NCBI RefSeq assembly: GCF_017968845.1
Contig: NZ_CP072876.1
Location: 1,426,001 to 1,490,000, forward strand
DNA: 64,000 bases
From: Microbacterium sp. NIBRBAC000506063
GTDB lineage: Bacteria > Actinomycetota > Actinomycetes > Actinomycetales > Microbacteriaceae
Reading direction: 5' to 3'
The notes beneath the pieces were generated by a model that was not told the origin of the DNA, searched no databases, and worked only from the letters and a program-made list of their open reading frames with translations. Below, in pieces: positions 46,741 through 64,000 of this stretch. A program made the position numbers and the translations under genes. The first letter of the stretch is position 1. Every line of letters begins with the position of its first letter.

Positions 46741-46754
46741 AACAAGCGCTTGAG
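46741..46754. promoter_or_regulatory. KstR2-like operator, first of the catabolic island
   Basis: AACAAGCGCTTGAG contains the perfect palindrome CAAGCGCTTG and matches AnCAAGnnCTTGnT except at the last base. It overlaps TTGAGT (46750-46755), the likely -10 element six bases before the ATG at 46762, and TTGACT at 46727 is a possible -35. Confidence 0.6.
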
Positions 46755-46761
46755 TAAGAGA

Positions 46762-47510
46762 ATGTTCGCGCCACTCGCCTTCTTCTCGTTCGTCCGCCTC
46801 GAAGACCCCGCGCAGCGCGGCGCCTACAACCGCTGGCATCAGCTCGACCACCGGCCGGAGAACCTGGCGTTGCCCGGGTGGCGTGGGGCGACCGCTGGGA
46901 GCTGCGCTCGGAGAACCGCCCTGTGGCGTCCGGTCGTGACGTCGACCTCATCGATTACGTCGCGATGTACTGGTTCCGGGAACCCGTCGCCGAGTCGGTG
47001 GCCGCATGGGACGCACTCGGCGAGGCCTCGTTCCAATGGGGACGCGGGCCGCTGCTGCCGGGCATCCAGCGCCCCATGCTCGCTTTCTTCACGCCCGTGA
47101 AGGGGTACGCCGCACCGCGCGCCCTCGTCTCGCCCGAGGTTCTGCCGTACCGGCCGAATCGCGGACTGCACATCTCGGTCACCGAGTTCGACGAGCCGCA
47201 TGCCGAGACCACGCACGACGCGCACCGCCTCGAGGATCGCGAGGTGATCCCGGCGCTCCTCGAACTCGAGGGTGTCGCCGGCGCCTGGACCTTCTCGTTC
47301 AGCCATCCGCAGCAGCACACCTCGCTGCCCTTCGAATCCCGTCCCGCGGCGAAGGGGAGCATTCGCATCCGGCTCCTCTACCTCGAGCAGGATCCTGTCG
47401 CGGTCGCACCGGAGATCGACCGCATCGAGAACGGAATCGTCGGCGACCCCGCCGGAACGCGGATCCTCTCGGCTCCGGTCTCGACGATCATCCCTTGGCA
47501 GGACTGGTGA
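46762..47510 (+). CDS. unrecognised conserved protein, one apparent frameshift
   Basis: A soluble protein of about 249 residues that starts MFAPLAFFSFVRLEDPAQRG then YNRWHQLDHRPENLALPG and continues GDRWELRSENRPVASGRDVD, LIDYVAMYWFREPVAESVAA and SIRIRLLYLEQDPVAVAPEI. The HQLDHRPENLALPG and YVAMYWFREP stretches look like two units of a dimeric alpha/beta barrel (EthD/Dabb style), but I cannot name the family. The frame shifts near 46880 in TGGGGCG. Its stop overlaps the next GTG, and a KstR2-like site covers its promoter, so it belongs to the island. Confidence 0.7.
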
Positions 47511-47980
47511 GTCTGCCCGTGGAAGAGCGGCTGCGAGCGCTCGAGGACCGTGCGGCGATCGCTGAGCTCATCGCGCAGTACGGTCCGGCAGTCGACCGTG
47601 GCGACGCGGATGCCGTGAGGGCGCTCTGGTCGGATGACGGAGAGTACGGCTTCGACGACACGGTCCTCGATGCCGAGGGCATCCACTCGCTCGTCGATCT
47701 GGAGACGCATCGCGATCTCATGCGTCGCGGCTGCGCACACATCATCTCGGCGCCGACGATCGTGCTCGGCGGCGACGCGGCCGTCGCCATCACCCACTCG
47801 GCTGTCCTCGCCGGCACCGACCGCGGCTGGGAGCCGGCACGCGTCAGCGCCAACCGCTGGGAGCTCGTCCGCACCGCGCAGGGATGGAAGGTGAATCGGC
47901 GGCTGAACCGCCTGCTCGACGGCAGCGCCGTCGCCCGGAACCTCCTCGCGCCCGGTGGACTCAATCCGCGAACCGATTGA
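47507..47980 (+). CDS. SnoaL/NTF2-like family protein
   Basis: A 157-residue protein with the cone-shaped NTF2 fold: LRALEDRAAIAELIAQYGPA, DRGDADAVRALWSDDGEYGF, CAHIISAPTIVLGGDAAVAI and ANRWELVRTAQGWKVNRRLN. Members include steroid-isomerase-like enzymes and polyketide cyclases as well as non-enzymes. The GTG start overlaps the stop of the preceding gene (GTGA). Its 3' end overlaps that of the convergent oxidoreductase gene by 20 bases. Intact. Confidence 0.85.
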   Translation: MSLPVEERLRALEDRAAIAELIAQYGPAVDRGDADAVRALWSDDGEYGFDDTVLDAEGIHSLVDLETHRDLMRRGCAHIISAPTIVLGGDAAVAITHSAVLAGTDRGWEPARVSANRWELVRTAQGWKVNRRLNRLLDGSAVARNLLAPGGLNPRTD

Positions 47981-49113
47981 GCGGCGTCTCGCCCTCCTCG
48001 GCCAGGCGCGCCAGCGTCCGTGCTCGCGGACCGAGAGCGCTGCCGAAGCGCACGTTCCAGGTCTCGTACGTCTCATCGCCCAGCGCGATCCGGGCGTGAT
48101 GGGCCCAGTTCGGATCGTCGAGCATCTCGCGCCCGAGCAGGACCAGGTCGGCGTCGCCCTCCTCGATCAGGCGCGAAGCCTGGATGGGATCGACGACGAG
48201 GCCGACCGTGGCGGTGAGCGCATCCGCCTCCGCGCGGATGCGCCGCGAGAAGTCCGCATGGAAGGCGAATCCTCGCCGCACTCGGGTGTCCGATGAGCGG
48301 TCCGTCGACACGCCGCCCGAAGAGGTATCAACGACGTCCACACCCGATGCCGCAAGCGCACGGGCGAAGGCAACGGTGTCCTCGATCATGAGGCCGCCCT
48401 CGATGCCGTCCACCGAGGAGACACGATAGGCGAGGGGATGTCCGCTCCGATCGCATCCCGCACCGCTGCGACGACCTCGAGCGGGTACCGCATCCGTCGC
48501 ACGGCATCGCCACCGTATTCGTCCTCGCGGCGATTCGAAATCGGGGAGAGGAAGGAATGCAGAAGATACCCGTGCGCGCCGTGCAGCTCGATATAGCGGA
48601 AGCCCGCATCGATCGCCCGGCGTGCGGCATCTGCCCACCGGGCGACGGTGGATCGGATCCCGGCGAGGTCCAACTCCTCGGGAACCGGGAAGCCGGGCCC
48701 GGCCGGCAGGGCTGAGGGTCCGATGACCGGCCAGGGGTGGTGTCCGGCATCCGCGTCGCTCTGGTCCAAAGGCGCCCCTGCTCGCCACGGCTCTCGCACC
48801 GAAGCGCGCCGCCCCGCGTGACTCAGTTGGATCCCGGGCACCGCCCCTGCGCGGCGATCACCGCGGTGATCGGCCGCCATGCGTCCACGTGGGTGCCCGC
48901 CCATAGCCCGGTGTCCCAGGGGGAGATCCGTCCGCGAGGTTCGACGGCCGTCGCCTCTGCGATCACCAGGCCGGCGCCACCGAGGGCGAAGCGGGCGAGA
49001 TGGGCGAGATGGAAGCCGTCGGCGTGGCCTTCTTCCGCCGCGTACATGCACATCGGCGAGACGCCGATACGGTTCGACAGAGTGACGCCGCGGATGGTCA
49101 GAGGTCGGAACAC
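47961..49113 (-). CDS. NADH:flavin oxidoreductase (old yellow enzyme family), two apparent frameshifts
   Basis: FMN-dependent ene-reductase of about 384 residues, close to the YqjM/xenobiotic-reductase type. VFRPLTIRGVTLSNRIGVSP, MCMYAAEEGHADGFHLAHLA, the FMN/substrate block AIDAGFRYIELHGAHGYLLH and FLSPISNRREDEYGGDAVRR, and DADLVLLGREMLDDPNWAHH are all present. One-base losses lie near 48840 (GCCCCTGCG) and 48440. It would reduce activated C=C bonds of a cyclic enone. GTG 49113 follows AAAGGA; the upstream MFS gene stops just before it. Confidence 0.85.
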
Positions 49114-49115
49114 GG

Positions 49116-50509
49116 TCAGGGCGTCCTTTCGGGGAGGCAGGGAGGCGGGTCGCCAGGAACGCGGCGAAGGCGGCGGCGATCGCGGCGGCGATGAGGCAGA
49201 CCTGCAACCCGATCGTGGACAGCTGGATGCCGCCTTCGACGTCGGGGAGTGCCACGAGCACGAGTGCGAGCGCGGCGCTGGCGACGGCGCCCGAGAGCGA
49301 GCGTGCGAGAGAGTTGACGCCGTTGGCGGCGGAGACCTGATGCGGGGCCACGGCATCGATGATGAGAGAGGGCATGGCGGCGAAGGCGAATGCCGTCCCC
49401 GCACCGACGAGCGTCGCTCCGATCAGGACCAGGGTGAGGTCGCCATGCCAGAAGAGGCGGAACGCGAAGGCGCCGGCCATGATCGCGGTGCCGAGGAAGA
49501 GCGTGCGCCCGGGCCGATGCGGGAGATAAGCCGTGCCGCCGGCGCCGACAGCAGCAGTCCCGCCAGCGAGGACGGCACGAGCATGAGCCCGGCTGTCGAC
49601 AGGCTCAGCCCCAGGCCGTAGGCGGTCTCGGGATCGGCAAGCGCCTCCTGCATCGTGATCAGGTGGTTGGCATACATGCCGAAGGTCGCGAAGAACGACG
49701 CGATGTTGATCTGCGCCACAGGCGAGCGCATCGAGACCGTCACATCGATGACGGGCGACGGATGCCTGCGCTCCCAGGGCCACCACAGCACGAGAGCCAG
49801 TCCGCCCGAGAGCGCGACACCGACCGTGGCGAGCGTGAGGCCCCACGTGGCCATGCGAGAGATCACGAGGAGGATCAGGGAGAGTCCGACGGTGAGAAGG
49901 ATCGTGCCCACGACGTCGAAGCGACCCGGGTCGCGCACGGCCGCCTCATCGACGAAGAGCACGAGGAGCACGACGAGGGCCATGCCCGCGATCGCGGACG
50001 CCCAGAAGATCGTCGGCAGCCCTCCCCACGCCACCAGGGGCCGGCGATCGTGAGCCCGAGTCCCGATCCGAGAGCGACGGTGCCGCTCATCAATGCGACG
50101 CCGAGGCGGGTGCGGATGGGGCTGACGAGTCCGCTGAGGAGCCCGATCCCGATCGGCAGGGCGGAGGAGGCGAAGCCCTGCAAGGCGCGTCCGGCGAGGA
50201 TCAGGGCGAAGGAGTCCGTCACGGCGGCGATCACCGATCCGGAGACGAGCAGAGCCATGGCGATGAGGAGCAGCTTCCGGCGCCCGTGCATGTCGGCCAA
50301 GCGCGCCATGACCGGCGTTCCGATCGTCGCCACCAGAAGCGTGACGGTCACCAGCCAGGTGGCGTCGCCTGCTGTGGTGTCCAGCAGCACTGGGACCTGG
50401 GCAGCACGGGCACGATGAGCGTGAACTGGATGGAGCCGACGATGCCGCAGAAGGCGAGCACGGCGACGACGAGCCGCTGATGGGCGTCACTGTGATCTGA
50501 GCGGGACAA
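49116..50509 (-). CDS. MFS drug-type transporter, several apparent frameshifts
   Basis: Major-facilitator exporter of about 465 residues with 14 expected helices (DHA2 type). Family marks are FCGIVGSIQFTLIVPVLP, the loop motif ARLADMHGRRKLLLIAMALL and the motif C-like GSGLGLTIAGPWW. Frames break near 50400, 50040, 49515 and probably 49130. The TTG at 50509 after GGACGG is the most likely start; a TTG at 50545 would add 12 residues. It is divergent from the metallo-hydrolase across a KstR2-like site, and may export or import the pathway substrate. Confidence 0.8.
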
Positions 50510-50567
50510 GGCATCCGTCCGGAAGATATGGGTATCCGTTCTCAACCTAGCGATTTCCGCTCAAATG

Positions 50568-50581
50568 AACAAGCGATTGCT
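50568..50581. promoter_or_regulatory. KstR2-like operator between MFS and metallo-hydrolase genes
   Basis: AACAAGCGATTGCT matches AnCAAGnnCTTGnT at all fixed positions but one (A for C). It sits in the 83-base divergent region and abuts TAGGGT (50581-50586), the likely -10 element six bases before ATG 50593, so it can control both genes. Confidence 0.6.
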
Positions 50582-50592
50582 AGGGTGAGAAG

Positions 50593-51578
50593 ATGAGCGC
50601 AGACGTCGATCCCGAAGAGATCCGCCCGGGCCTGTGGTGCCTGCCCATGCCCATCCCCTACGGCCCGCTCAGCACGACACTCGGCTACGCGATCGTCGCC
50701 GATGACGGCGTCCATCTCATCGATCCGGGCTGGGAGTCGGATGCCAACGAGGCCCGCCTCGCCCGGATGCTCGAACAGATCCCTCGCTCCCTGAACGAGG
50801 TCCGCACGGTCGTCGTCACCCACCACCACCCCGATCACCTCGGACTCGCCGACCACGTGCGTCGGGAGAGCGGTGCGCACCTGGTGATGTCCGCGACCGA
50901 GCATGCCGTGCTCGTGAGGGTCGCAGCCCCCGACCTCCGTGATGCCGACGGCTATCAGGCGCGCCTGGACGGATGGGGCGTCCCCGCCGAGCGCCGCGAT
51001 GGGCTCATCGAGAGCCATGCGGACTCCATCCCGTCCGCGCCGACCCGGCCCGATCGCACCGTGCACGACGGTGAGACGCTCACTCTCGGCGATCGCGCAC
51101 TCACCGTCGTCGAGACGCCGGGACATACCAGCGGGCACATCTGCCTGGTCGACACCGCTGCGGGCGTCATCTTCACCGGCGACCACGTGCTGCCGGAGAT
51201 CTACTCGGGTTGGGACTCGGCATGCTCCCCGGCAGTGAGCCGGTCGCTGAGCTCGTGGCATCCCTCGACCGCCTGGCACCCTATGACGACTTCGAGGTGC
51301 TGCCGGGCCACCGTCGCCGTTTCCGGGGTCTGGGCCAGCGCCGCCGCCGAATCGCGGCGCACCACCTGCGCCGGTTGTCCGAAGTCGCCGCGCTCGCGCC
51401 TGAACTGGGCGATGCGCCCGTCTGGGAGTACGCGCGCCGCCTGACCTGGACCCTCGGCTGGGAGGGGCTGCAAGCCTTCGCGCTGCATTCGGCCCTTCAC
51501 CAGACCGAGCTGCACCTGCGTGCCGCCCAGGCAGACAGCGGCGCCGTGCTGATCGCGCGGGCGCTCAGTTCCGGCTGA
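50593..51578 (+). CDS. metallo-beta-lactamase-fold hydrolase, one apparent frameshift
   Basis: Binuclear-zinc hydrolase of about 328 residues. The metal motif is VVVTHHHPDHLGLADHV, further ligands are His in ETPGHTSGHICLVD and Asp/His in IFTGDHVLPEI, and the C-terminal FEVLPGHRRRFRGLGQR gives the last His. The frame shifts near 51210 in TCGGGTTGGG. The C-terminal helical domain of about 90 residues resembles LACTB2-like or lactonase-like members. Opening of a lactone or release of a thioester would fit the island. The start is leaderless-type. Confidence 0.85.
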
Positions 51579-51999
51579 TACGCCGATGGTGCAGCCGCCA
51601 GCCTTCGGCGGTGCGCAGGAGACGGTCGTCGTAGCATCCGATCGCCACGAGCGCGGGGATGCCGTCGGTGTCGCGGTAGTAGCGGAAGTAGGTGCGCGCG
51701 CTCGCCGCGTCGCCGTCGATCTCCACGACGCTCGTCGAGATGTCGTGGCGCGTATGGGAGCCCGGACCCTGCACCCTCGCGGCACGCCTTTCCAGGACAC
51801 CGGCCAGAAGGGCCTCGTGCCCCTGGATGCGCTGGACGTCCAAGGGCAGGTCGCTCGCGTCTGCGAGGTCCCAGACGGCGTCCGGGGTGAAGCAGGTTAT
51901 GTAGTCCTCCGGGTCGCCGTCGTCGGCGAGGTGGGCGATGCGGGCGAGCAGGCGCCCGATCTCGAGTTCGTCGCGCACCCGGCGCAGGTCGTCGCTCAC
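51565..51999 (-). CDS. SnoaL/NTF2-like family protein, second copy
   Basis: A 144-residue protein: RVRDELEIGRLLARIAHLAD, CFTPDAVWDLADASDLPL, SHTRHDISTSVVEIDGDAAS and RTYFRYYRDTDGIPALVAIG. This is the ring-hydroxylating-dioxygenase-beta-like SnoaL_4 group; no catalytic role can be assigned. The GTG overlaps the thioesterase stop (GTGA). Its 3' end overlaps that of the metallo-hydrolase by 14 bases. Intact. Confidence 0.83.
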   Translation of the reverse strand: MSDDLRRVRDELEIGRLLARIAHLADDGDPEDYITCFTPDAVWDLADASDLPLDVQRIQGHEALLAGVLERRAARVQGPGSHTRHDISTSVVEIDGDAASARTYFRYYRDTDGIPALVAIGCYDDRLLRTAEGWRLHHRRISRN

Positions 52000-52433
52000 G
52001 TCCCCTCCGTCGCCCAGGCGGTCAGCAGCGCGCGCAGATCGGCGGGAATCTCGATCCGGCTCTGATCGGGTGAGACGGTCACGAGGGTATTGGAGGAGCG
52101 TGCGACGAGAACGTCGTCGTCGGTGCGGACCATGCGGAAGGCGAACTGGAAGGAGGAGTCGCCGATGCGCCCGATCCGCAGTTCGACGCGGATCTGGTCG
52201 AACAGGCGCGCGGCCGCGAGGTACTCGCAGGTGGTCGAGCGGGAGACCGTCCACCAGCCGAAGCGCTCGGCGAGCGTGTCCTGTCGCAGTCCCTGCAGGT
52301 AGAAGAACTCCGAGGTGAGTCGTTCCATCATCGGAAACCAGGCCGCGTAGTAGAGGATGCCGGCCGGGTCCGTGTCGGCGTAGCCGAGGCGGATCGTGTG
52401 CGAGAGCAGCACCGGGGCGTCGGTCTCGATCAC
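51996..52433 (-). CDS. acyl-CoA thioesterase, 4-hydroxybenzoyl-CoA thioesterase-like
   Basis: Hot-dog-fold thioesterase of 145 residues. SHTIRLGYADTDPAGILYYA carries the catalytic Asp motif (YxDTDxxGhxY/F), followed by WFPMMERLTSEFFYLQGLRQ and RSTTCEYLAAARLFDQIRVE. It would free an acid from CoA or serve as proofreading enzyme of the pathway. The GTG overlaps the SDR stop, and its own stop overlaps the SnoaL start, so three genes form a tightly coupled operon. Intact. Confidence 0.88.
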   Translation of the reverse strand: MIETDAPVLLSHTIRLGYADTDPAGILYYAAWFPMMERLTSEFFYLQGLRQDTLAERFGWWTVSRSTTCEYLAAARLFDQIRVELRIGRIGDSSFQFAFRMVRTDDDVLVARSSNTLVTVSPDQSRIEIPADLRALLTAWATEGT

Positions 52434-53173
52434 TGCGTCACCGTCCACCCGCCGTCGACCGGGAGGAAGACGCCGTTGATGTAGCTCGCAAGGGGCGAGA
52501 GCAGGAACAGGGTGGCATAGGCGATGTCGTCGGGCGTGCCCATGCGCCTGAGCGGGATGCGTTCGAGCACGCGCTGCCCCATGGGGCTGGAGGCGAAGCC
52601 CGCAAGGCGCGGGGTGTCCGTCATCCCGGGTGCGACGGCATTGGAGCGGAACTCCTCCGAGCGGTAGGCGGCGAGGTGGCGCACATAGCCGGTGATCGCG
52701 GCCTTCGATGCCGAGTACCAGTCGCTGGCCGTGCCGATGACGTTCCCCGCGACGGATGCCGTCGCGACCATGGCCGCGCCAGGCCCGGGGCCGGATGCCG
52801 CCCAGGTGTCGGTCATCAGCCGCACCGTGCCCACGCACAGCTCGAGCGCGCGATCGAAGGGGATCTCGCTGCTGGAGGCGGGGCCGGCGTTGTTGTGGAG
52901 ATATCGGATCGTGCCCAGCTGCGCGCGGGCGTTCGAGAGGCCCTCGGTGACGAGTGCGGCATCCGACACGTCTCCGACCCACGTGTGCACGGGGTGACCG
53001 ACCTCGCGGACGGATGCCGCGGTCTCCTCGAGCCCGTCGGAGTTGAGGTCCCACAGGCTCGTGCCGAGGCCGAGCTCGGCCGCACGCAGCGCGGTTGCCC
53101 GGCCGATGCCGCTGCCGGCTCCGGTGATCAGCAGGTTGTCTCCGGGGGCGAACCCGAGGGCGATCGAGGACAT
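52430..53173 (-). CDS. SDR dehydrogenase, 3-alpha-hydroxysteroid-dehydrogenase-like
   Basis: Short-chain dehydrogenase of 247 residues. LLITGAGSGIGRATALRAAE binds the cofactor, Asp in SLWDLNSD favours NAD, HNNAGPASSSEIPFDRALEL follows, and the catalytic Tyr/Lys are in DWYSASKAAITGYVRHL. The short substrate loop and NNAGP resemble bacterial 3-alpha-HSD and other cyclic-alcohol dehydrogenases. It would oxidise a ring alcohol to the ketone used by the monooxygenase next door. GGAG precedes ATG; a perfect KstR2-like site lies just upstream. Intact. Confidence 0.87.
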   Translation of the reverse strand: MSSIALGFAPGDNLLITGAGSGIGRATALRAAELGLGTSLWDLNSDGLEETAASVREVGHPVHTWVGDVSDAALVTEGLSNARAQLGTIRYLHNNAGPASSSEIPFDRALELCVGTVRLMTDTWAASGPGPGAAMVATASVAGNVIGTASDWYSASKAAITGYVRHLAAYRSEEFRSNAVAPGMTDTPRLAGFASSPMGQRVLERIPLRRMGTPDDIAYATLFLLSPLASYINGVFLPVDGGWTVTQ

Positions 53174-53187
53174 CGATGTCTCCTAAC

Positions 53188-53203
53188 AAGCAAGTGCTTG
53201 CTT
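53188..53203. promoter_or_regulatory. best-conserved KstR2-like operator, SDR operon promoter
   Basis: AAGCAAGTGCTTGCTT has perfect seven-base arms (AAGCAAG/CTTGCTT) and matches AnCAAGnnCTTGnT at every fixed position. It lies 15 bases upstream of the SDR start and next to TAGAGT (minus strand, 53207-53212), the likely -10 element. Confidence 0.72.
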
Positions 53204-53241: not shown

Positions 53242-54843
53242 TCACGCGCGGCTGAGCACGAAACCGCGGTACCCCTCCTCGGCGACGGCATCGGCCCGGT
53301 CGATATAGGCGCGGAAACCGCCGATGTAGGGCAGGAATCCGCGCGCCTTCCCCTCGATGTTCGCCCCCGTGTACCACGACGGCGCATCGCCGAAGAGGGT
53401 GGCGTCGGCCAGGTCGAGCCCGTGCTGCGTCCACGCCTCGGCGGCATCCTGACGCGCCTCCGCCGAGGTCAGCTGCTCGGCGGAGCAGTGATCGATGAGC
53501 CGCAGCGCGTATGCGCCCTGCTGCTCGGAGGTCAGCGCCATGTTGGAGAGCACGCTGGGAGTGCCTGGGCCGTTCAGCACGAGCAGGTTCGGGAACCCCG
53601 GCAAGGCCACGCCGAGATAGGTCTGCGGGAACCCGCGCCATTCCTCGCGGATCGAGCGGCCGTCGCGGCCGCGGATGTCGATCGCTGTCAGTGCCCCGGT
53701 CATGGCGTCGAACCCCGTCGCATAGACGATCACATCGTGCTCTCGCAGGCCGCTCTCCGTGCGTATGCCGGACCCGGTCACCTCGACGATCGGGTCGCGC
53801 CGCAGGTTGACCAGCTCGACATGCGGGAGGTTGAAGGTCTCGTAGTAGTGGGTGTCCGTGCAGATGCGCTTGGTGCCCACCGCGTGATCGGTCGGGGTCA
53901 GGTCGGCTCGCACCTGTGGGTCGTTCACCCGCTCCGCGAGCTTGCGCTCGAAGAATGTCCGGGCCGCCTCGTTGATCTCGTGATCCACCGTCAGTCCCTG
54001 GAACGCCTTGGCGAAGAGCACGCCGCCGCGGGTCCAGCTCTCCTCGAAGACCTCCTCGCGCTCGGCATCCGACGCCTCCGCGTACGGGACGGGGTGGCTC
54101 GTCCACGGAGAGCCGGCGGCGCCGTTCCACGACAGCTCCCGGCGATGGGTCAGATCCTCCTGCTGGCGCAGCCACTCCTCGTCGTCGAGCACTCGGTTGA
54201 ATGCGGGCACGCTGTAGTTCGCACTGCGCTGGTACACCGTGACCTCGGATGCCGTATCGGCGATGATCGGGATCGCCTGCACGCCCGAGGATCCCGTGCC
54301 GATCACGGCCACCCGTCTGCCGGTGAAGTCGATCTGCCCGTCCGGCCACGCCGAGGTCTGCAGCACCTCACCGGTGAAGGAGTCGCGGCCGGGGATGTCC
54401 GGCAGGATCGGGCGGGAGAGGCATCCGGTGGCCATGACGAGCCAGCGGGCAGTCGTGGTGAAGCCGCTCTCGGTGCGCACCTTCCACAGGTGACTCCGCT
54501 CGTCCCAGTCGGCCGAGGCGACGCGCTCGTCGAAGCGGTAGTGGCGACGGGCGTCGAAGCGGTCGGCGACGTGATTCAGATAGCGGAGGATCTCCGGCTG
54601 TGTCGCGTAGCGCTCGCTCCAGCGCCACTCGCGCTGCAGCTCATCGTCGAAGGAGTAGGAGTAGTCGATGCTCTCGACATCGCAGCGCGCCCCCGGGTAG
54701 CGGTTCCAATACCAGGTGCCGCCCACCTCGGAGCCGGCTTCGAGGCCGAGCACGCGCAGACCGCGGCGTTCGGCGTGGATGGTGGTGTACAGCCCGGCGA
54801 AACCGGCGCCGACGACGACGAGGTCGTGTTCGGGGAGAGTCAT
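53242..54843 (-). CDS. Baeyer-Villiger-type flavin monooxygenase with altered fingerprint
   Basis: FAD/NADPH monooxygenase of 533 residues, cyclohexanone-monooxygenase group, which inserts oxygen next to a ketone to give an ester or lactone. FAD motif VGAGFAG (11-17), GGTWYWNRYPGARCD (41-55), NADPH motif IGTGSSG (181-187), GTKRICTD with the likely catalytic Arg326, and DVIVYATGFDAMTG (370-383) are normal. In the fingerprint FxGxxxHxxxW the His is Gln162 (FTGEVLQTSAWP). The start overlaps the hydrolase stop. Intact. Confidence 0.9.
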   Translation of the reverse strand: MTLPEHDLVVVGAGFAGLYTTIHAERRGLRVLGLEAGSEVGGTWYWNRYPGARCDVESIDYSYSFDDELQREWRWSERYATQPEILRYLNHVADRFDARRHYRFDERVASADWDERSHLWKVRTESGFTTTARWLVMATGCLSRPILPDIPGRDSFTGEVLQTSAWPDGQIDFTGRRVAVIGTGSSGVQAIPIIADTASEVTVYQRSANYSVPAFNRVLDDEEWLRQQEDLTHRRELSWNGAAGSPWTSHPVPYAEASDAEREEVFEESWTRGGVLFAKAFQGLTVDHEINEAARTFFERKLAERVNDPQVRADLTPTDHAVGTKRICTDTHYYETFNLPHVELVNLRRDPIVEVTGSGIRTESGLREHDVIVYATGFDAMTGALTAIDIRGRDGRSIREEWRGFPQTYLGVALPGFPNLLVLNGPGTPSVLSNMALTSEQQGAYALRLIDHCSAEQLTSAEARQDAAEAWTQHGLDLADATLFGDAPSWYTGANIEGKARGFLPYIGGFRAYIDRADAVAEEGYRGFVLSRA

Positions 54844-55767: not shown

Positions 55768-55801
55768 CTGCGATCCTCCTTGATCGTTCGTATATGACTA
55801 A

Positions 55802-56423: not shown

Positions 56424-56443
56424 ATCTTCGCCGTGTCGACGGG

Positions 56444-57221: not shown

Positions 57222-57247
57222 GGCCGGAATCTAACACCTTTGCAACA

Positions 57248-57315
57248 ACCAAGCAATTGTTCGCTTGGCTGTTGATTGCGCCCCGGGAATGTGTTTTACT
57301 AAGCAAGCGTTTGGT
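57248..57315. promoter_or_regulatory. two KstR2-like sites in the SDR/Liv-transporter divergent promoter
   Basis: Site one (57249-57268) has CCAAGC and GCTTGG inverted around eight bases and includes ACCAAGCAATTGTT. Site two (57302-57315) is AGCAAGCGTTTGGT, one base from the consensus AnCAAGnnCTTGnT. One lies near each of the two divergent genes. Confidence 0.6.
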
Positions 57316-57348: not shown

Positions 57349-58580
57349 ATGCGTTTTAAGAAGATCACAGCCGCTGCGGCCGTCGCCGCCGCCGCTGCCT
57401 TGGTGCTCGCCGGCTGCGCCGGCGGCGGCAACGGCACGGGGAACGGAGCCGGCGAGGAGCCGGGCGAGGTCGACGAGCCCATTCAGGTCGTCGTTCTCGG
57501 CGGACTCGGGGCAGCCGGCATCCTCGCCGACAACGCCTCGACCTCGGTCACGGCAGCCCTGGCATCCGTCGACGCCATCAACGACATGGGCGGGATCCTC
57601 GGCCGTGAGGTCCAGATCACCCACCTGGAAGACAACGCCGACCCGACGGTGGCCGTCACCAAGCTTCGCGAGTACATCGCCACCGAGGGAAAGCCTGCCC
57701 TCGTCATGAACTCCGGCCCCTCGACGATCGCCGAGGCGACGATCCCCATCCTGACGCAGAACGAAATCATCAACTTCAACATCGGTCCGACCGCTGGATC
57801 GAGCGACCCTTCGGTCAGCCCGTTCACCTTCGACCTCAGTGCCACGGTTCCCGACTACCTGGGATCCTTCCTCGCCGAGGTGGAGAGCCGTGGCTATCAG
57901 GACATCGCGATCCTGCACGGATCGTCGGCCTACGGTGAGCTGTTCGGCGCGCAGTCCAAGGCCCTGTACGAAGAGGCCGGCTACAACGTCACGGGGATGC
58001 AGGGCTTCGACAACGCTGCACTGGACATGACCGCGCAGCTGTCCGCCCTCCAGGTCGGCGATCCGGATGTGCTCATCCTCGACGCCTATGGCGCTCCGCT
58101 CGGCTACGTTCTGCAGAGCCTGGAGAAGCTGGGGTGGGACGTCCCGATCATGGGCAACACCTCGGTCTCCGCCACCGGTCTGATCGCGACCGAGGCGCCC
58201 GCCGGAGTCCTCGGTACCGACCAGGTCAAGAATCTGACGATGCAGGTCTTCTCCAGCACGCAGTTCGACCCCGACGCCACCGCGGTGAACGACGCGGTCG
58301 AGCGCATGGTGGCCGCCGGCGACATCCGCTCGTCCCTGATCCTGGCGTACAACTACGACTCGATGTTCCTGCTGAAGGCCGCTGCAGAGTCCGCAGGCGC
58401 GATCGACGACCCGAACGCGCTGGTCGCCGCACTCCGGGACCCGGCGGTCCAGGAATCCGCGGGACGGTCATTCTCAGCAGGTACGGTTTCACGGAGGAGC
58501 AGCATGGACCCCATGTCACCCCGGAGGAGTTCGCGTTCATCTCGCCCGGCAAGCTCGTGAACGGTCAGTTCCAGCCCTGA
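57349..58580 (+). CDS. branched-chain amino acid-type ABC transporter substrate-binding lipoprotein, frameshift near the end
   Basis: Extracellular lipoprotein of about 410 residues. The signal peptide ends in the lipobox VLAGCAGGG, so the mature N-terminal Cys is lipidated. The body is a type I periplasmic fold: VVVLGGLGAAGILADNASTS, NDMGGILGREVQITHLEDNA and HGSSAYGELFGAQSKALYEE. The frame shifts near 58460 in GCGGGACGG; the corrected end reads GFTEEQHGPHVTPEEFAF. Liv-type binders in catabolic islands often bind aromatic or steroid acids; the ligand is not readable here. Confidence 0.88.
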
Positions 58581-58610
58581 ACGCTGATCGACTGATCACC
58601 CAGGCATGAC

Positions 58611-58643: not shown

Positions 58644-58684
58644 GCCATACCCACCGTCTCTGTGATGGAAGGAACCCGAACCGC

Positions 58685-59541
58685 ATGACCATCATCTGGT
58701 CCGGTCTGGCCCTCGGCGCGGTCTACGCGCTGGTGGCGATCGGCTACAACATCGTCTTCCTGTCCCAGAAGACGTTCAACTTCGCGCAGGCTGCGCTCAT
58801 GATGCTGGGTGCCTTCATGGCCTACGTCGGCATCGTGGTGTGGGGTCTGCCTTGGTACATCGTCGCGATCATCGCCGCCGTCGTCGTCGGCGCCATCGCC
58901 GCAGTCGAGGAGCGGATCGCCATCCGCCCCGTGAAGGACCCGCACAACCTGCTGGTGACGACGCTCGGTGCGTCGATCATCATGGAGGGCGTCGCGATGG
59001 TCATCTGGGAGGCGAGCCGCGTCGGGTGCCCTTCTTCATGGGTGACCATGTGCTGGAGATCTTCGGCGGACGTCTCTACCCGGTCGAACTCGCCCTGGTG
59101 ATCGCCGTCGTCCTCATCGTTGTCGGACTCACCCAGTACGCCAAGCGCAGCATGACAGGCATTGCGCTCCTCGGCATGAGCGAGAACCGCGAGGCCGCGC
59201 AGCTGCGTGGTGTGAACGTCCGCCGATTCGCGCTCATGGCCTTCGTCTTCACCGGTGTGCTCGCCGGTTTCCTGGGCGTCTTCGTCGGCCCCAAGACCTA
59301 TGCGGTCGCAACCCTGGGCGCCTCGCTGGCGCTGAAGGGCTTCGTGGTGCTGGCGATCGGCGGTTTCGGGTCGATGTGGGGCACCCTGGTCGGCGGGCTC
59401 ATCGTCGGCCTCGTCGAGGCACTGACCACGCGGTATGTCGGTGCGGACTACGCCCACATCTCCGTGTTCTTGATCCTGGTCGTGATTCTGATGGTCAAAC
59501 CGACGGGACTGTTCACCCGTCGCGTGGAACGGGCGGTGTGA
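58685..59541 (+). CDS. livH: Liv-type ABC transporter permease LivH, one apparent frameshift
   Basis: Inner-membrane permease of about 285 residues with eight helices. MTIIWSGLALGAVYALVAIG, NIVFLSQKTFNFAQAALMML and GASLALKGFVVLAIGGFGSM are typical LivH text, the last being the coupling-loop region for the ATPase. The frame shifts near 59035 in CGTCGGGTGCCC; the corrected text continues RRVPFFMGDHVLEIFGGRLY. GGAAGG precedes the ATG. The fused permease-ATPase gene starts two bases after its stop. Confidence 0.88.
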
Positions 59542-59543
59542 AC

Positions 59544-61361
59544 ATGGCTGGACTCTGGTTGAAGATCCGTACGGTCCCGGGCTGGATCTGGCCGCTCGCC
59601 ATCGGCGTCGTGCTCCTGCTCCTTCCCTTCGTCGGCCTGAGCTACGCGGTGACGCGGCAGATCGAGCTGACCCTCATCCTCGCCCTCATCGTGGTGGGCC
59701 TGAACCTGTCTCTCGGTTTTGCCGGAGAGCTGGCCATGGGCCAGGTCGCGATGTACGCGGCCGGTGCTTATGCGGCGGGTCTGGTCAACAAGGCGGGCGT
59801 GACCGACATCTGGCTGCAGATCCTCGTCGGCGCGAGTGCCGCGCTCGTCATCGGCCTCCTCTCCGGAATCCCTGGCCTGCGGCTGGGCAGCTGGTCACTG
59901 GCGATGACGTCGTTCTTCCTCATCCTGATGGTGCCGGACGTGCTCTCGATCTTCAAGGATCAGACCGGCGGCCGCAACGGACTCGCCGGCATCCAGCCCC
60001 GACATCCTTCGGGCAGATGATCGACGGGCGCACCTACTACCTGATCATCGTGGCCATCACGATCGTGATCTTCGCACTGATGCGCAACCTCATCGTCTCC
60101 CGGCATGGGCAGGCACTGCGAGTGCTCAAGCAGAGCCCGGTGCTTGCCGCCTCGATGGGATCTCGGTCTTCCGGGCGAAGCTCACCGCCTACGCGATCGG
60201 TGCCTTGCCGGCGGGTGTCGCCGGAGCGCTGTTCGCCAACCTCGACCTGTTCATCTCGCCGGAGGCGTTCGCCTTCTCCTTCGCGATGACCGTTCTGGCG
60301 GCGTCGATCTTCGGCGGCTCGGCGAGCATCTACGGTGCCCTGGTCGGGGCGACCGTGCTGCAGTTCGGCATGTATCAGTCGACGAGCTTCGATCAGTACC
60401 GTCTGATCATCGCCGGCGGCTTCCTGCTCATCGGGGAGTCGCCTTCACCGGCGGGCTGTCCGGTGCGGTGCGCTCCCTCGTGCGACGCGTGGACATCGTG
60501 GCGAAGGCGAAAGCCGGCATCCGCGAGGAGTTCGAGGTCACGACCGAGATCCCGCATCTCGACGGCGCACTCCTGCGCACCGAGGACGTCTCCAAGGCGT
60601 TCGGTGGGAACCAGGCGCTGTCGAAGGTGAGCGTCGAGGCCCACCCGGGCCAGATCACCGCGATCATCGGCCCCAACGGCTCGGGCAAGACGACGCTGCT
60701 GAACATGATCTCCGGCTTCTACCGCACCGACGAGGGCACGATATCCCTCGACGGCGAGCACATCCAGGGACTTCCGTCCTACAAGGTCGCCCGCGCCGGT
60801 GTCTCGCGCACGTTCCAGACCCCGAACGTGCCCGAGAAGCTGACGGTGCTCGAAGCGGTCGAGACCGGCCGCTATGCGCACGATCGCGCGAGCATCCTCG
60901 CCTCTGTACTGCGGATGCCGTCGTTCTGGAGGTCGAAGAACACCGACCGCATCGAAGCTGAGCGCGCTCTCGCGCTCGTCGGGCTCAGCGATCAGCGCGA
61001 TGAGCTGGCCGACTCGCTCCCCCTGGGCAACCGGCGCCTCCTGGAGGTCGCCCGGAGCCTCGTGAGCAACCCGAAGGTGATCCTCCTCGATGAGGTCGCC
61101 TCGGGGCTCGACGAGGACGAGCTCGAGGTGCTGGAGTCTCTCGTGATCCGCTTGCGTGACGCCGGGATGACCGTGATCCTGGTCGAGCACAACTTCCAGC
61201 TCGTGCTGCGCGTGGCCGATGACATCTACGTGCTGGCTCAGGGCGCGGTCATGGCGCACGGCGACGCGGCGCAGATCGAGCAGAACCCGCGCGTGATGGA
61301 GGAGTACCTCGGTGTGACCGCCGAAGCTGCGGCCGACAACTCAGGAGGCGATGATGAGTGA
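59544..61361 (+). CDS. fused Liv-type permease-ATPase (LivM-LivG), three apparent frameshifts
   Basis: About 606 residues. The N-terminal part is a LivM permease: ALIVVGLNLSLGFAGELAMG, LIVSRHGQALRVLKQSPVLA and GGSASIYGALVGATVLQFGM. After RSLVRRVDIVAKAKAGIREE it passes without a stop into a LivG ATPase with Walker A GPNGSGKTT, the LivG-type QTPNVPEKLTVLEAVETGR, a degenerate-looking signature SLPLGNRRLLEVARSLVS (no LSGGQ) and Walker B VILLDEVASGLDEDE. Shifts lie near 59998, 60160 and 60440. No start codon with a ribosome site lies at the junction, so a true fusion is likely. Confidence 0.78.
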
Positions 61362-62073
61362 CGTCCTGTTGGAACTGTCCGGCGTGCAGACCGGGTACGG
61401 CGACCTCAAGGTGGTCCGCGACGTCTCGCTCACGGTCCGGGCCGGTGAGATCACGGTGCTTCTCGGCCGCAACGGTGCGGGCAAGACCACGACGCTGCGG
61501 GCGATCACGGGTCTGAACCGGCTGTTCGGCGGCAGCATCAGCTATCTGGGGGAGCCGCTGTCCTCCGATGCGCCGCACAAGCGGGTCGCGAAGGGCATCT
61601 CCTACGTGCAGGAGGGCAAGAAGATCTTCCGCGAGTTGACGATCGAGCAGAACCTCCTGCTCGGCGGCTTCTCGCAGAAGAAGGGAAAGCGTGCCCTCGC
61701 GGCATCCGTCGAGGAGATCTATCAGCTCTTCCCGATCCTGGGGAGCAAGCGCGCTCTGCATGCGGCGAGCATGTCCGGCGGCCAGCAGCAGATGCTCGCC
61801 ATCGGCCAGGCGCTCATGGCCAAGCCCACGCTCCTCATCCTCGATGAGCCCAGCCAGGGCCTCGCCCCCGTCGTCGTCAAGGAGGTCATGGAACGCGTGC
61901 ACGATCTCAAGGACACCGGCATCGGCATCCTCCTGGTCGAGCAGGCCGTGCAGGACTCGGTCGCCATCGCGGATGAGGTGTCGGTGGTCGAGATGGGCAA
62001 GACCGTGCTCGCCGGTCCGGCTTCGAAGATCACGGCCGAGGATCTGCAGAAGGCGTACTTCGGCGCCGGGTGA
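61351..62073 (+). CDS. livF: Liv-type ABC transporter ATPase LivF
   Basis: Second ATPase of the importer, 240 residues. Walker A GRNGAGKTT, the LivF-type VAKGISYVQEGKKIFRELTI, signature MSGGQQQMLAIGQAL and Walker B LLILDEPSQGLAP are present. The signature is normal, unlike that of the LivG part. The start overlaps the end of the fused gene. GGAGG precedes the ATG. Intact, and last gene of the transporter operon. Confidence 0.93.
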   Translation: MMSDVLLELSGVQTGYGDLKVVRDVSLTVRAGEITVLLGRNGAGKTTTLRAITGLNRLFGGSISYLGEPLSSDAPHKRVAKGISYVQEGKKIFRELTIEQNLLLGGFSQKKGKRALAASVEEIYQLFPILGSKRALHAASMSGGQQQMLAIGQALMAKPTLLILDEPSQGLAPVVVKEVMERVHDLKDTGIGILLVEQAVQDSVAIADEVSVVEMGKTVLAGPASKITAEDLQKAYFGAG

Positions 62074-62085
62074 GTCACGGTAGAT

Positions 62086-62124
62086 GAGAGGGCTGCAGCG
62101 GATCGTCACCGCTGCGGCCCTCTC
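62086..62124 (+). terminator. Rho-independent-like terminator after livF
   Basis: GAGAGGGC and GCAGCGG (62086-62101) pair with CCGCTGC and GCCCTCTC (62109-62124), giving a 16-base-pair stem with one T-G step and a seven-base loop. It begins 12 bases after the livF stop. Between it and 62281 I see no further gene. Confidence 0.8.
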
Positions 62125-62281
62125 GTCATGGGGGTCCGGATGCGGCTAGCAGGCTCTGTCCGGATGGGTCATCGCCCAGAGTCGCACCCGTGCGCGATTC
62201 TCGTGGAGAGGATCCTCGGAGCCACGGCGCAGCAGGAGCTCAGCTCGTGGATCTCGCGGCGATCCTCGGCCTCGGTCGTCG

Positions 62282-63113
62282 TCAGGCCCGATCCGGCATG
62301 TTCGTCCAGCCGCGGCCCTCTGCCCTGCCGTACCAGCCGGAGGCCGCGAGCGTGCCGCCGTCGACGGGAATCGTGTGCCCGGTGATGAACGAGGCTTCGG
62401 GGAGGCGAGGAAGGTCACGACGCCGGAGAAGTCCTCAGGTGTGCCGAAGCGGCCGGCCGGGAGCCAGGAGCGCAGCAGCGCCGGGTCGCGGCCGGCGAGC
62501 ATGAGTTCGGCCGGGGTCTGCTCCGTATCGGCGAGATCGGGGGCGATCGCGTTGACGCGGATGCCGGAGGGGCCGAGCTCGACCGCGAGACTCTTGGTGA
62601 ACGCCGAGACGCCGGCGTTGTAGGCGGAGTACACGGCGTTGCCCGGGATGCCCCGGTAGGCCTCCACCGTGGAGACGTTGACGATGCATCCGCTCTGCTG
62701 CTCCAGCATCCAGGGCAGAAGCGCGCGGGTCACGGTGAACACGTGCCACAGGTTCAGCTCATGGAGACGTTGCCACTGCTCGGGCGGGCTCTTGGCGAAG
62801 AAGGACTTCGCCGGCCGGAAGTCGCCGACGTTGTTGACCAGCACATCGACGCGTCCGTGCGCCCGTTCGATCTCGTCCGCGAGTGCGGTGACGGTGGCGT
62901 CGTCGGTGATGTCGCCGATGACGGACGTGCAGAGGCCGCCTGCGGCGCCGATGTCGGATGCCGTGGCCGCCGCCGCGTCCGCGTCCACGTCCACGAGCAC
63001 GACATGAGCGCCGTCTGCCGCGAAACGACGGCTGATGCCGCCGCCGATGCCGAGGGCGCCCCCGTGACCACGACGACGCGGGGAGTGGGCGGTGAAGGGA
63101 CGACGCTGATCAT
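62282..63113 (-). CDS. SDR oxidoreductase, two apparent frameshifts
   Basis: Short-chain dehydrogenase of about 277 residues. After MISVVPSPPTPRVVVVTG a one-base loss near 63060 (GCGCCCCCG) leads to GALGIGGGISRRFAADGAHV; then VDVLVNNVGDFRPAKSFFAK, catalytic VYSAYNAGVSAFTKSLAVEL and SGIRVNAIAPDLADTEQTPA. In the active site the usual YxxxK is YSAYN: the Lys position holds Asn, so the reading or the activity should be checked. The end, corrected near 62400, reads ASFITGHTIPVDGGTLAASG. TAGGTT lies six bases before ATG (leaderless type). Confidence 0.82.
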
Positions 63114-63114
63114 G

Positions 63115-63138
63115 AAACAAACCTAGCATTTGTTTGGT
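63115..63138. promoter_or_regulatory. palindromic operator between two divergent SDR genes
   Basis: AAACAAA (63115-63121) and TTTGTTT (63129-63135) are perfect inverted arms around CCTAGCA. The overlapping AGCATTTGTTTGGT (63125-63138) matches the site AGCAAGCGTTTGGT at 57302 in 11 of 14 positions, so it may be a weaker member of the same operator family. It overlaps the -10 elements of both genes. Confidence 0.55.
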
Positions 63139-63193
63139 AGTATGGACAGGCTCGTCGCACGTTGCTTGTGCGCGCAGATTCGGAGGAGACATC

Positions 63194-64000
63194 GTGAGTC
63201 TGGTTCTCGATTTCGCCGGCAAGGTGGTCGCCGTGACCGGCGGCGCGCGCGGCGTCGGCCGCGGCATCGCAGAGTCCTTCCTAGAAGCCGGCGCCGCCGT
63301 GGAGATCTGCGGCCGCAGCACACCGGAGGAGCTGCCCTCTCGGGGCGGTCGGAGCGCCGCCTTCACCGCCGTCGATGTGCGAGACGACACGCAGATCGAG
63401 GAATGGATCGCCGGTATCGTGCGCCGCCGCGGCCGCCTCGACGTGCTGGTCAACAACGTCGGCGGATCGCCGTTCGGCCGCTTCGAGACAGGATCCCCGC
63501 GCTACATCCGCGCCATCACCGAGCTGAACTTCCTCTCTGCGGCCGTCGCCTCCCGTGCCGCATACGAGGCGCTGCGTGCCACTGGCGGCTCCGTCGTCAA
63601 CATCACCTCCATCAGCGCGCGCCGTCCGAGCCCCGGCACAGCCGTGTACGGGGCCGCCAAGGCGGCGCTCGAGAGCCTCAGCCGGAGCCTCGCCGCCGAG
63701 TGGGCCCCGACGGTCCGCGTCAACGCGGTCAGCAGCGGCCTCGTCGCCACGGAGTCGGCGGTCGATCACTACGGCACTCCCGAACAGTACGCCGCGATCG
63801 CGCGCACCATCCCGCGCGGACGGCTCGCCGAGCCCGCGGACATCGGGCGGGTCTGCGTCATGCTCGCCTCTCCCCTGGCCGCGCACCTCACGGGAGCCGT
63901 CGTCCCCGTCGACGGCGGCGGCGAGTTGCCCGCCTTCCTGGCGCACACCCCCACGCAGACATCTTCGGCGCCGCCGAGCACACCGACCCTGAGCAAGGAG
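63194..64000 (+). CDS. SDR oxidoreductase, 3' end beyond the window
   Basis: Short-chain dehydrogenase, 269 codons seen. AVTGGARGVGRGIAESFLEA binds the cofactor, LDVLVNNVGGSPFGRFETGS follows, catalytic text is VYGAAKAALESLSRSLAAEW, and VVPVDGGGELPAF closes the fold. GTG 63194 follows GGAGGAGAC at normal spacing. Near 63955 (CACCCCCACG) the text becomes Ser/Pro-rich; one missing base would give DIFGAAEHTDPEQG, a more normal acidic tail, so a shift is suspected. The gene runs off the right edge. Confidence 0.85.
   Translation, partial: MSLVLDFAGKVVAVTGGARGVGRGIAESFLEAGAAVEICGRSTPEELPSRGGRSAAFTAVDVRDDTQIEEWIAGIVRRRGRLDVLVNNVGGSPFGRFETGSPRYIRAITELNFLSAAVASRAAYEALRATGGSVVNITSISARRPSPGTAVYGAAKAALESLSRSLAAEWAPTVRVNAVSSGLVATESAVDHYGTPEQYAAIARTIPRGRLAEPADIGRVCVMLASPLAAHLTGAVVPVDGGGELPAFLAHTPTQTSSAPPSTPTLSKE

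Follow-up and report, generated by a model that had tools for sequence, protein, structure and literature searches.

A predicted KstR2 island for steroid C/D-ring breakdown in Microbacterium with a linked Liv-type importer

The 64,000-nt window analysed here (Microbacterium sp. NIBRBAC000506063, GCF_017968845.1, NZ_CP072876.1, positions 1,426,001 to 1,490,000 of the forward strand) holds the left part of a KstR2-controlled Microbacterium island of about 45 kb. Judged by its predicted genes and operators, the island serves the breakdown of the steroid C and D rings (HIP), expanded with importers and redox genes. The assignment of regulator and pathway is near certain; substrate, effector, import and life style we infer from regulation and genome context. 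Two features appear unusual, namely that no genes for the A/B rings were found and that a dedicated importer stands under the same KstR2 switch. The explanation which fits best as a whole, and which we hold to be probable, is a KstR2-run HIP island with Liv-type import in an organism that scavenges two-ring steroid fragments.

Genes and operators in the window

The features are listed by their position in the window (operators without strand), together with the regulator gene, for which the window numbering is continued past the end.

46741..46754: predicted KstR2-type operator, promoter of the EthD-like/SnoaL genes, 1 mismatch
46763..47506, plus: EthD-like/unknown protein, named by eye, frame broken near 46872
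47507..47980, plus: SnoaL-like protein (PF13577)
47961..49125 (limits approximate), minus: Old Yellow Enzyme-type (OYE) flavin reductase, frame broken
49131..50511 (limits approximate), minus: MFS transporter, EmrB-like (35 bits, below cut-off), frame broken
50568..50581: predicted KstR2-type operator between the MFS and MBL genes, by pattern and matrix
50593..51578, plus: metallo-beta-lactamase-fold (MBL) hydrolase (PF00753), frame broken near 51204
51565..52002 (limits approximate), minus: SnoaL-like protein (PF13577)
51996..52435 (limits approximate), minus: 4HBT thioesterase, by family matches
52430..53173, minus: SDR dehydrogenase
53189..53202: predicted KstR2-type operator, exact match, promoter of the SDR-thioesterase-SnoaL operon
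53242..54843, minus: Baeyer-Villiger-type flavin monooxygenase (BVMO)
54840..55772 (limits approximate), minus: HSL-family alpha/beta hydrolase, by family matches
55849..56423, plus: PadR-type regulator (PF03551, 27.1 bits, cut-off 27), frame broken
56446..57225 (limits approximate), minus: SDR dehydrogenase (PF13561)
57248..57261: predicted KstR2-type operator 1 of the SDR/Liv divergent promoter, by pattern and matrix
57302..57315: predicted KstR2-type operator 2 of the same promoter, by pattern and matrix
57349..58580, plus: LivK-type solute-binding lipoprotein (PF13458), frame broken near 58455
58685..59541, plus: LivH permease (PF02653 in both pieces), frame broken near 59023
59545..61363, plus: LivM permease fused to LivG ATPase (PF02653 and PF00005), frame broken here
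61351..62073, plus: LivF ATPase (PF00005)
62300..63113 (limits approximate), minus: SDR dehydrogenase (PF13561)
63121..63134: predicted KstR2-type operator between two divergent SDR genes, 2 mismatches
63194..64000, plus: SDR dehydrogenase (PF13561), reaching the window end
67013-67624 (window-equivalent), about 3 kb past the window end: TetR regulator, KstR2 orthologue

Reading frames are broken in many places of this genome, which has a completeness score of 76.8%; the eight relatives carrying the island score 99-100%. The EthD-like piece at 46875-47504 matches nothing in Pfam or NCBIfam and the MFS piece at 49507-50037 nothing in Pfam; the EthD-like gene is found in 7/8 relatives and the MFS gene in 6/8. 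The Old Yellow Enzyme is named from its C-terminal piece only, which is NamA/BaiCD-like and scores far under the cut-offs. The metallo-beta-lactamase-fold hydrolase is a candidate thioesterase or lactonase, and the PadR-type regulator may govern the BVMO-hydrolase pair. The island also holds an LLM monooxygenase with an HsaB-like reductase.

The C/D-ring genes

Counterparts of the known KstR2 regulon lie in the 24 kb that follow the window edge. They comprise a thiolase, FadD3, KstR2, IpdAB, three acyl-CoA dehydrogenases in the position of FadE33/32/31 and a crotonase, as well as FadE30, IpdF (the SDR at window-equivalent 80642, not the one at 87226), FadA6, IpdC, a second IpdAB, EchA20 and an Rv3548c-like SDR. 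Thus the HIP set of fadD3, ipdAB, ipdC, echA20, fadE30, fadE31-33, fadA6 and ipdF is present, most of these names being given from synteny or from broader family models. The FadD3-family model, applied to a frame-cut piece, scores 506 bits and stays under its cut-off (657), and the search with EchA20 was unspecific, returning the whole crotonase family. IpdA of both sets matches the chains 6co6, 6co9, 6coj and 6con with E values of 1e-69 to 4e-78, the next match being at 5e-12 or weaker; these entries, titled CoA-transferase alpha subunit, we take to be the IpdAB structures. The neighbourhood is common to the KstR2 loci of Mycolicibacterium, Rhodococcus and Nocardioides, and the island core is syntenic in 8/9 relatives having a close kstR2. 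The counterparts of known KstR2 targets and the conserved synteny together argue for a KstR2-controlled HIP island.

Even inside the window there is probably a regulon member. The SDR at 63194 is the best SDR match in canonical KstR2 loci (44-54%) and is the likely counterpart of Rv3549c, which Table 1 of PMC5380842 places in the mycobacterial KstR2 regulon. The sequence-only reading had seen none of FadD3, IpdAB and FadE30 and had argued from this for another substrate. That argument arose because the window ended before these genes, whose counterparts begin at its edge, and an undescribed route for some new cyclic substrate is rejected, since the canonical HIP counterparts follow directly.

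The regulator and its operators

The same reading had placed a TetR-type regulator outside the window, and a KstR2 orthologue indeed lies about 3 kb beyond the edge. Its best PDB matches are 2ibd ('possible transcriptional regulator') and the KstR2 entries 4w1u and 4w97 (E 3e-49 to 3e-47; next 1e-18), and its DNA-binding region is near-identical among 10 members of the genus. Among the 21 NCBIfam matches there is no KstR2 model. KstR was rejected as the island's regulator, its NCBIfam model giving 31 bits.

The palindromes on which the sequence-only reading was built all exist, each at most one base from the position given there (53189 for 53188, 57248 for 57249; the weaker one at 63115-63138 encloses 63121-63134). 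Mismatches to ANCAAGNNCTTGNT number one at 46741, 50568, 57248 and 57302, none at 53189 and two at 63121-63134. At up to two mismatches the window contains 23 matches, with 6.93 expected and 16 as the largest value of 100 shuffles. Over the whole genome, at up to one mismatch, there are 42 places, intergenic or not, versus 89 for the reversed control pattern; the motif is therefore not enriched genome-wide. Nine of the 42 fall within C1:1472741-1513103, about 40 kb or 1.3% of the genome (binomial 3.8e-9), four of them to the right of the window at window-equivalent 69303, 73899, 79428 and 87090. Thus the genome-wide pattern scan gave clustering at the island and no enrichment. Additional candidate sites stand at 66970, 87022 and 87041; the first, AACAAACGCTTGTC, precedes kstR2 itself with two mismatches and 12.4 bits, under our working line of 13 bits. 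One further site pattern was composed post hoc with the sites already known.

The 24-column matrix was built from ten sites of the source genome, so that the scores of these ten are circular. In each of the eight island relatives, where sites stand at orthologous promoters, the matrix finds 12-15 sites above 13 bits, and 200 column-permuted matrices give means of 0.12-0.52 with a largest single value of 10. Applied to 80 KstR2 loci, nearly all actinobacterial, it finds 205 sites above 15 bits in 76 of them (30 permuted matrices: total mean 0.8, maximum 5). A site is found before the EthD-like gene in all eight genomes carrying that gene, the source included, before the MBL gene in 6/7, before the SDR of the SDR-thioesterase-SnoaL operon in 8/8 and before the SDR at 56446 in 8/8. 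The site between the two divergent SDR genes is present in 9/9, as is one upstream of the SDR at 62300, and kstR2 has its own site above 13 bits in 6/9 (not in G099 and G137). The target promoters carry the operator AnCAAGnnCTTGnT, the KstR2 operator motif (PMC3068626). The palindrome had been correctly recognised as the KstR2 operator form.

The importer

A single operon encodes the Liv/HAAT importer, with its binding protein and a pair each of permeases and ATPases (PF13458; PF02653 in three pieces; PF00005 in two), and the LivM-LivG fusion is a single reading frame in all eight relatives. In the PDB, LivK matches Leu/Ile/Val-binding proteins no better than E 6e-8; these are weak matches to amino-acid-type binders, and the search gave no clue to the ligand. 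We surveyed 198 genomes of the genus, the source included, taken from a larger group; for most of them only the best 9 (LivK) or best 16 (KstR2) first-look candidates were scored. LivK is found in ten, that is, in 9/9 island genomes and in 1/189 others, a fragmented draft (Fisher 9e-15). A predicted KstR2 site lies upstream of LivK in 9/9 genomes, and in nine further genomes KstR2-type sites lie upstream of the importer at 9/10 loci. Genome G017 lacks the island's left part, and its LivK and LivHMGF stand some 14 kb apart. Regulation and genome context suggest that the importer takes up HIP-type acids. Our literature search returned no paper joining KstR2, a branched-chain-type ABC transporter and steroid, and two that join Microbacterium and KstR2.

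The upper pathway

We searched for the A/B-ring enzymes with family models for HsaC, HsaA, KstD and KshA. The printed model names confirm these families, and we take NF009479, printed only as 'PRK12845.1', to be ketosteroid dehydrogenase. HsaC is above cut-off in none of the 10 genus genomes (no match above 45.3 bits). Among 15 genomes, namely these ten, three further Microbacterium, Microcella and one MAG, HsaC, HsaA and KstD are above cut-off in none and KshA in one, so that all four are below the curated cut-offs in 14/15. The exception is a distant KshA-like Rieske protein of 103 bits in M. resistens NBRC 103078 (G200); the best KshA matches of four degrader controls have 277-322 bits. These controls are above cut-off for HsaC, HsaA and KshA in 4/4 and for KstD in 3/4. 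An HsaA-like protein in G155 has 335 bits, below the cut-off of 450. In the source genome HsaA, KstD and KshA are all three missing at the thresholds used, an absence that is weak alone because of the 76.8% completeness and the many broken frames. Because absence is judged from similarity to these known families, an upper pathway of other descent, such as an estrogen 4,5-seco route (AedA/AedB), would have gone unnoticed.

Among the 49 genomes reached from 50 of the 80 KstR2 loci (L114 excepted) HsaC is above cut-off in 33. LivK occurs in 6 of the 16 genomes lacking HsaC above cut-off and in 3 of the 33 having it (p 0.04, kinship ignored), and is thus not confined to genomes without HsaC. In Rhodococcus hoagii the contig with a LivK homologue (48%) also carries KshA-, HsaA- and HsaC-like genes, and KstR2-type sites.

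Discussion

We suggest that the island operates as follows. KstR2 would keep about ten promoter regions, with 13 sites, repressed. The effector of the characterised KstR2 is HIP-CoA (PMC5380842), and by analogy the repressor would leave its operators here once HIP-CoA forms. HIP-type acids, that is, the steroid C and D rings with the propionate side chain, would enter via the Liv-type importer and perhaps also via the MFS carrier. FadD3 would activate them, acyl-CoA dehydrogenase, crotonase, SDR and thiolase steps would shorten them, and EchA20 and IpdAB would open the rings. As the search turned up no A/B-ring enzymes of the 9,10-seco pathway, the most likely food of the organism is two-ring fragments, which other steroid degraders would release. 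The literature offers support: HIP was measured in cultures of an estriol consortium containing Microbacterium, and estriol by itself gave no growth of the Microbacterium isolate (PMC12502722).

The mycobacterial and rhodococcal KstR2 regulon (PMC3068626, PMC5380842) has in common with the island the regulator family, the operator, divergent promoters and the genes fadD3, fadE30-33, fadA6, echA20, ipdABC, ipdF and two SDRs. The island differs in the number of its promoter regions, about ten as against three predicted motifs there, and in its additional SDRs, OYE, MBL hydrolase, MFS and Liv importers and second ipdAB; unlike in those hosts, no A/B-ring genes were found in its genome. In Cluster C of Nocardioides simplex VKM Ac-2033D (KR76_25015-25200) kstR2 (25115) likewise adjoins fadD3 (25120) and ipdAB (25105/25110), another ipdAB lies elsewhere and KstR2 control is predicted; its 'ABC amino acid transporter' (25195), likened to Liv by description only, showed the strongest induction of all genes on phytosterol (59-fold; PMC7807495, PMC7593942). 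N. simplex, however, degrades steroids in full and has hsaC and kstD genes. Rhodococcus jostii RHA1 re-imports cholate metabolites with CamM and CamABCD, CamM those with perhydroindane structure (Swain 2012, cited after PMC8399759 and PMC12882949). By description this pair of MFS carrier and ABC importer resembles the island's transporters, but it serves a full cholate degrader that recovers its own losses.

The organism might instead degrade whole steroids with A/B-ring enzymes unlike HsaA, HsaC, KstD and KshA, for example those of an estrogen 4,5-seco route or the island's BVMO, OYE and LLM monooxygenase. HIP would then be made inside, and the importer would take up whole steroids or re-import lost HIP. 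M. resistens MZT7 reportedly carries fadD3 and kshB and breaks down estradiol to products of B-D ring cleavage (PMC9518027), the island holds the BVMO with its esterase, the OYE and the LLM monooxygenase with the HsaB-like reductase, and M. resistens NBRC 103078 has the distant KshA-like protein. Nevertheless we consider this unlikely. HsaC-model matches stay low throughout the ten genus genomes, the LLM/HsaB-like pair is found in just 2/8 relatives and the BVMO in 5/8, and in the MZT7 study ring-A cleavage products were not seen (PMC9518027). The BVMO has no KstR2 site upstream in 6/6 genomes, and its partner hydrolase has one in 1/6. The BVMO is thus probably outside the KstR2 regulon, and the BVMO-esterase pair was rejected as the regulon core, as the BVMO lacks a site in all six genomes and is absent from 3/8 relatives.

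Improbable, in our view, is that HIP enzymes and KstR2 were recruited as a toolkit for another hydrindane or perhydroindane natural product not derived from steroids, a reading near to that from the sequence alone. Genes beyond the canonical 15-gene regulon, the second, divergent ipdAB set in 7/8 relatives and the A/B-ring genes not found would suit it, but the canonical HIP genes stand in the shared order, canonical-type IpdAB is also present and the sites agree with those found across the KstR2 family. That the palindromes are chance, or operators of another TetR regulator, is rejected as next to impossible: their genome-wide count below the control and the weak site before kstR2 are outweighed by clustering, by conservation in the promoters of eight relatives and 76/80 KstR2 loci, and by the site that kstR2 itself has in most genomes.

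By a narrow measure we lean towards a general form of the scavenging reading: some Microbacteriaceae (Microbacterium, Microcella) and relatives may be specialist half-steroid scavengers with the whole HIP pathway and without A/B-ring degradation, which they lost or never had. They may possess their own undescribed KstR2-controlled Liv-type HIP importer with fused LivM-LivG, which they would share with full degraders, Nocardioides and Rhodococcus among them.

In the usual picture of steroid breakdown one cell performs the entire pathway. If our suggestion is true, a conserved island with only the second half of the pathway, plus a dedicated importer, would provide evidence from genomes for a division of labour, which would concern steroid removal in soil and sewage. 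According to a 2016 survey no steroid uptake systems had been identified outside the Mce4 taxa, CamM being named as a re-import carrier (PMC4810484), and a 2021 review calls uptake by bile-acid degraders still largely unknown (PMC8399759). The island would point to a concrete uptake system for steroid fragments, and both this system and the division of labour would be accessible to testing in culturable Microbacterium.

KstR2 operators and regulator

The sequence-only reading took a set of palindromes in the window for the operator form of KstR2. All are present within one base of where it placed them; that at 53189 matches the consensus exactly, four deviate from it at one base and the sixth at two, and the motif agrees with that published for KstR2 in the available text of PMC3068626. 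Allowing as many as two mismatches, 23 matches fall in the window where 6.93 would be expected. Across the genome the motif is not enriched (42 occurrences with one mismatch or none, 89 for the reversed control), but it is clustered: a 40 kb stretch around the finding, 1.3% of the genome, contains 9 of the 42 (binomial 3.8e-9), and 4 of these 9 fall right of the window. With a tighter pattern, devised after the sites had been seen, the genome gave 18 rows, of which 12 (10 distinct sites) belong to the island; the reversed control gave 43 rows.

A TetR-type regulator had been expected outside the window. The genome has 27 TetR-type matches; the best lies inside the cluster, right of the window, and is of KstR2 type. 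Among solved structures it is closest to 2ibd and the KstR2-named 4w1u and 4w97 (E 3e-49 to 3e-47), after which the best E is 1e-18. Arg162 and Trp166 of Mycobacterium tuberculosis KstR2 contact HIP-CoA (HIP, the steroid C/D rings with propionate side chain); presumably they are two of the alignment positions R167, D168 and W171, which are invariant across ten genus members. With an operator matrix built from ten sites of the own genome, 205 sites above 15 bits were found in 76 of 80 KstR2 loci drawn from genome_contigs, while 30 permuted matrices gave a mean total of 0.8 and a maximum of 5. We regard the operators and the regulator assignment as nearly certain.

Gene content of the island

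The known KstR2 targets were reported missing because the window ends; their counterparts stand to its right, where several of the following gene names rest on reading of the sequence and on synteny.

Genes right of the window (window numbering extended past the right edge)
64005-65111, thiolase
65512-66918, FadD3-like
67013-67624 (C1:1493013-1493624; L016:9013-9624), kstR2
67714-69232, IpdB/IpdA, kstR2-side set; then, in order, aldo-keto reductase, LLM monooxygenase with HsaB-like reductase, VOC, SDR, gamma-carbonic-anhydrase-like
75292-78535, acyl-CoA dehydrogenase pieces
78538-79425, crotonase
79502, FadE30-like
80642, IpdF-like SDR
81454, FadA6-like, then an SDR
83577, IpdC-like
84762-86254 (L017:6762-8254), second IpdB/IpdA, between ipdC and echA20
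86257-87015, EchA20-like
87226, SDR, then MaoC

Both IpdA proteins match solved IpdA-type chains, which we take to be the IpdAB structures, and no other CoA transferase comes near those scores. The gene neighbourhood recurs in KstR2 loci of Mycolicibacterium, Rhodococcus, Nocardioides, Saccharopolyspora and others, the flank of each locus displaying all or part of the island gene set, and it is consistent with Table 1 of PMC5380842 in the part available. That the island encodes a C/D-ring pathway is close to certain.

The second, divergent ipdAB sits in the ipdC-echA20 interval, where mycobacteria have their canonical set, and is present in 7/8 island relatives (absent from G192). Of 69 IpdA rows found, 45 were chosen for a tree. 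There the echA20-side IpdA makes up a distinct clade with full support and nine rows (8 from Microbacterium, one from a MAG), and the kstR2-side IpdA groups with canonical IpdA.

Frame breaks in window 46705-64000 and in the adjoining stretches L016 and L017 split the MFS, MBL, LivM-LivG, FadD3, FadE30-like, FadA6-like and other genes; in the relatives that were checked, a single longer reading frame takes the place of the pieces. The breaks are probably sequencing errors in the own assembly, which scored 76.8% complete.

Conservation of the island and its sites

A KstR2 match at E 1e-25 was found in 11 of 198 genus genomes: the own, nine at 57-87% identity, and G113 at 36%, which we treat as a paralogue. 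The G113 locus (L086) has four KstR2-like palindromes in 20 kb, maybe a paralogous regulon. Eight of the nine close relatives share the island core in synteny. In the exception, G118 (C4, L083-L085), the surrounding island is absent, and only kstR2 (57%), preceded by a site of its own, and one FadA6-like thiolase are present. The left part is variable: G017 lacks EthD-like, OYE, MFS, MBL, SDR-52433 and SDR-56494, and some members are absent from G155, G192 and G137.

Upstream matrix sites were counted with the own genome included, whose scores are mostly training scores. They precede LivK, SDR-62395/63188, IpdA, crotonase/FadE30 and EchA20/SDR-87226 in 9/9 each, SDR-52433, SDR-56494 and EthD-like in 8/8 each, SDR-73919/VOC in 8/9, MBL in 6/7 and FadD3/kstR2 in 6/9, one site being common to both genes of a divergent pair. 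Genes expected inside operons had none (IpdB, LivF, MaoC, SDR-80642 and thiolase-81454, 0/9 each; gamma-CA, 0/8). MFS scored 0/7 because the query piece lacks the gene start; MFS and MBL use one common promoter region. A block of BVMO, HSL-type hydrolase and PadR-type regulator (window 53242-56423) lies within the island in 5/8 relatives. Since it is nearly always without KstR2 sites (BVMO 0/6, hydrolase and PadR 1/6 each), it is probably switched separately.

Outside the genus, two Agromyces and Arthrobacter gandavensis (L102, L103, L104) have KstR2-like proteins at 62-65% near etfBA; no HIP gene was matched within 10 kb of these, and a strong KstR2-type site occurs once per Agromyces locus and not in L103. 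The Actinomycetota MAG SZAS has two kstR2-like genes on two contigs (L101, 72%; L183, 64%), each with HIP-type genes, the L183 copy in a Microbacterium-type island including the Liv operon.

The Liv-type importer

The importer comprises LivK, LivH, a LivM-LivG fusion and LivF. At E 1e-40, LivK occurs in 10/198 genus genomes, namely 9/9 island genomes and G124 (Fisher 9e-15), a draft (88% complete, 250 contigs) without a KstR2 match. Among 49 genomes reached from KstR2 loci, nine have LivK at E 1e-50: three Microbacterium, Microcella pacifica, the MAG, Streptomyces antnestii, two Nocardioides and Rhodococcus hoagii (two copies). Sites of 16.1-25.5 bits precede 9 of their 10 LivK loci, the sole exception being the second R. 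hoagii copy, about 20 kb from the first operon. In N. albus and R. hoagii, LivK and the kstR2 found are on different contigs. The first R. hoagii operon (contig C6, 43.9-48.5 kb; L181-L182) has three KstR2-type sites. Its neighbours include an HsaC-like gene at a distance of 4.2 kb and an HsaA-like gene at 5.2 kb, each scoring below cut-off, and at 6.5 kb a KshA match above cut-off. Genome G099 (C1:2882694-2886005, L060) has two adjoining LivK genes, 80% and 85% identical to the window's, with KstR2-type sites before each. In Nocardioides simplex, the available text of PMC7807495 gives an 'ABC amino acid transporter' in KstR2 cluster C as the most phytosterol-induced gene; it may be the same transporter.

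A/B-ring genes and the proposed mechanism

None of the ten genus members that have a close kstR2 (the own genome, eight island relatives and G118) has HsaC, the ring-A dioxygenase, above cut-off (best 45.3 bits); 33 of the 49 genomes reached from KstR2 loci do. In a set of 15, these ten with three further Microbacterium, Microcella pacifica and one Actinomycetota MAG, neither HsaC nor HsaA nor KstD (NF009479, which we take to be the ketosteroid dehydrogenase family) was above cut-off; G155 has an HsaA-like match at 335 of 450 bits and G200 (M. resistens) a KstD match at 116 of 793 bits. KshA_C passed in G200 only (103 bits). Four steroid-degrader controls gave HsaC, HsaA and KshA in 4/4 and KstD in 3/4. 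Two Arthrobacter genomes have KstD and KshA above cut-off and HsaA- and HsaC-like proteins below; thus not all relatives are without the upper pathway.

HIP-CoA is the KstR2 effector according to the part of PMC5380842 available, and HIP lactone also releases KstR2 according to that of PMC8399759. Opening of such a lactone could, as a guess, be the task of the MBL hydrolase, whose gene stands under a KstR2 site. Among the literature matches listed and the passages covered, we found no description of this kind of scavenging by import. In the available text of PMC12502722, a Microbacterium isolate from an estrogen-degrading consortium transformed estriol and did not grow on it, and HIP was measured in cultures of that consortium; food for a scavenger therefore exists.

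On balance we favour scavenging by import. A HIP-type acid would enter via the Liv importer, perhaps also the MFS carrier; FadD3 would make HIP-CoA, which would release KstR2 from the operators. Through beta-oxidation and the steps of EchA20 and IpdAB, the products would reach central metabolism.
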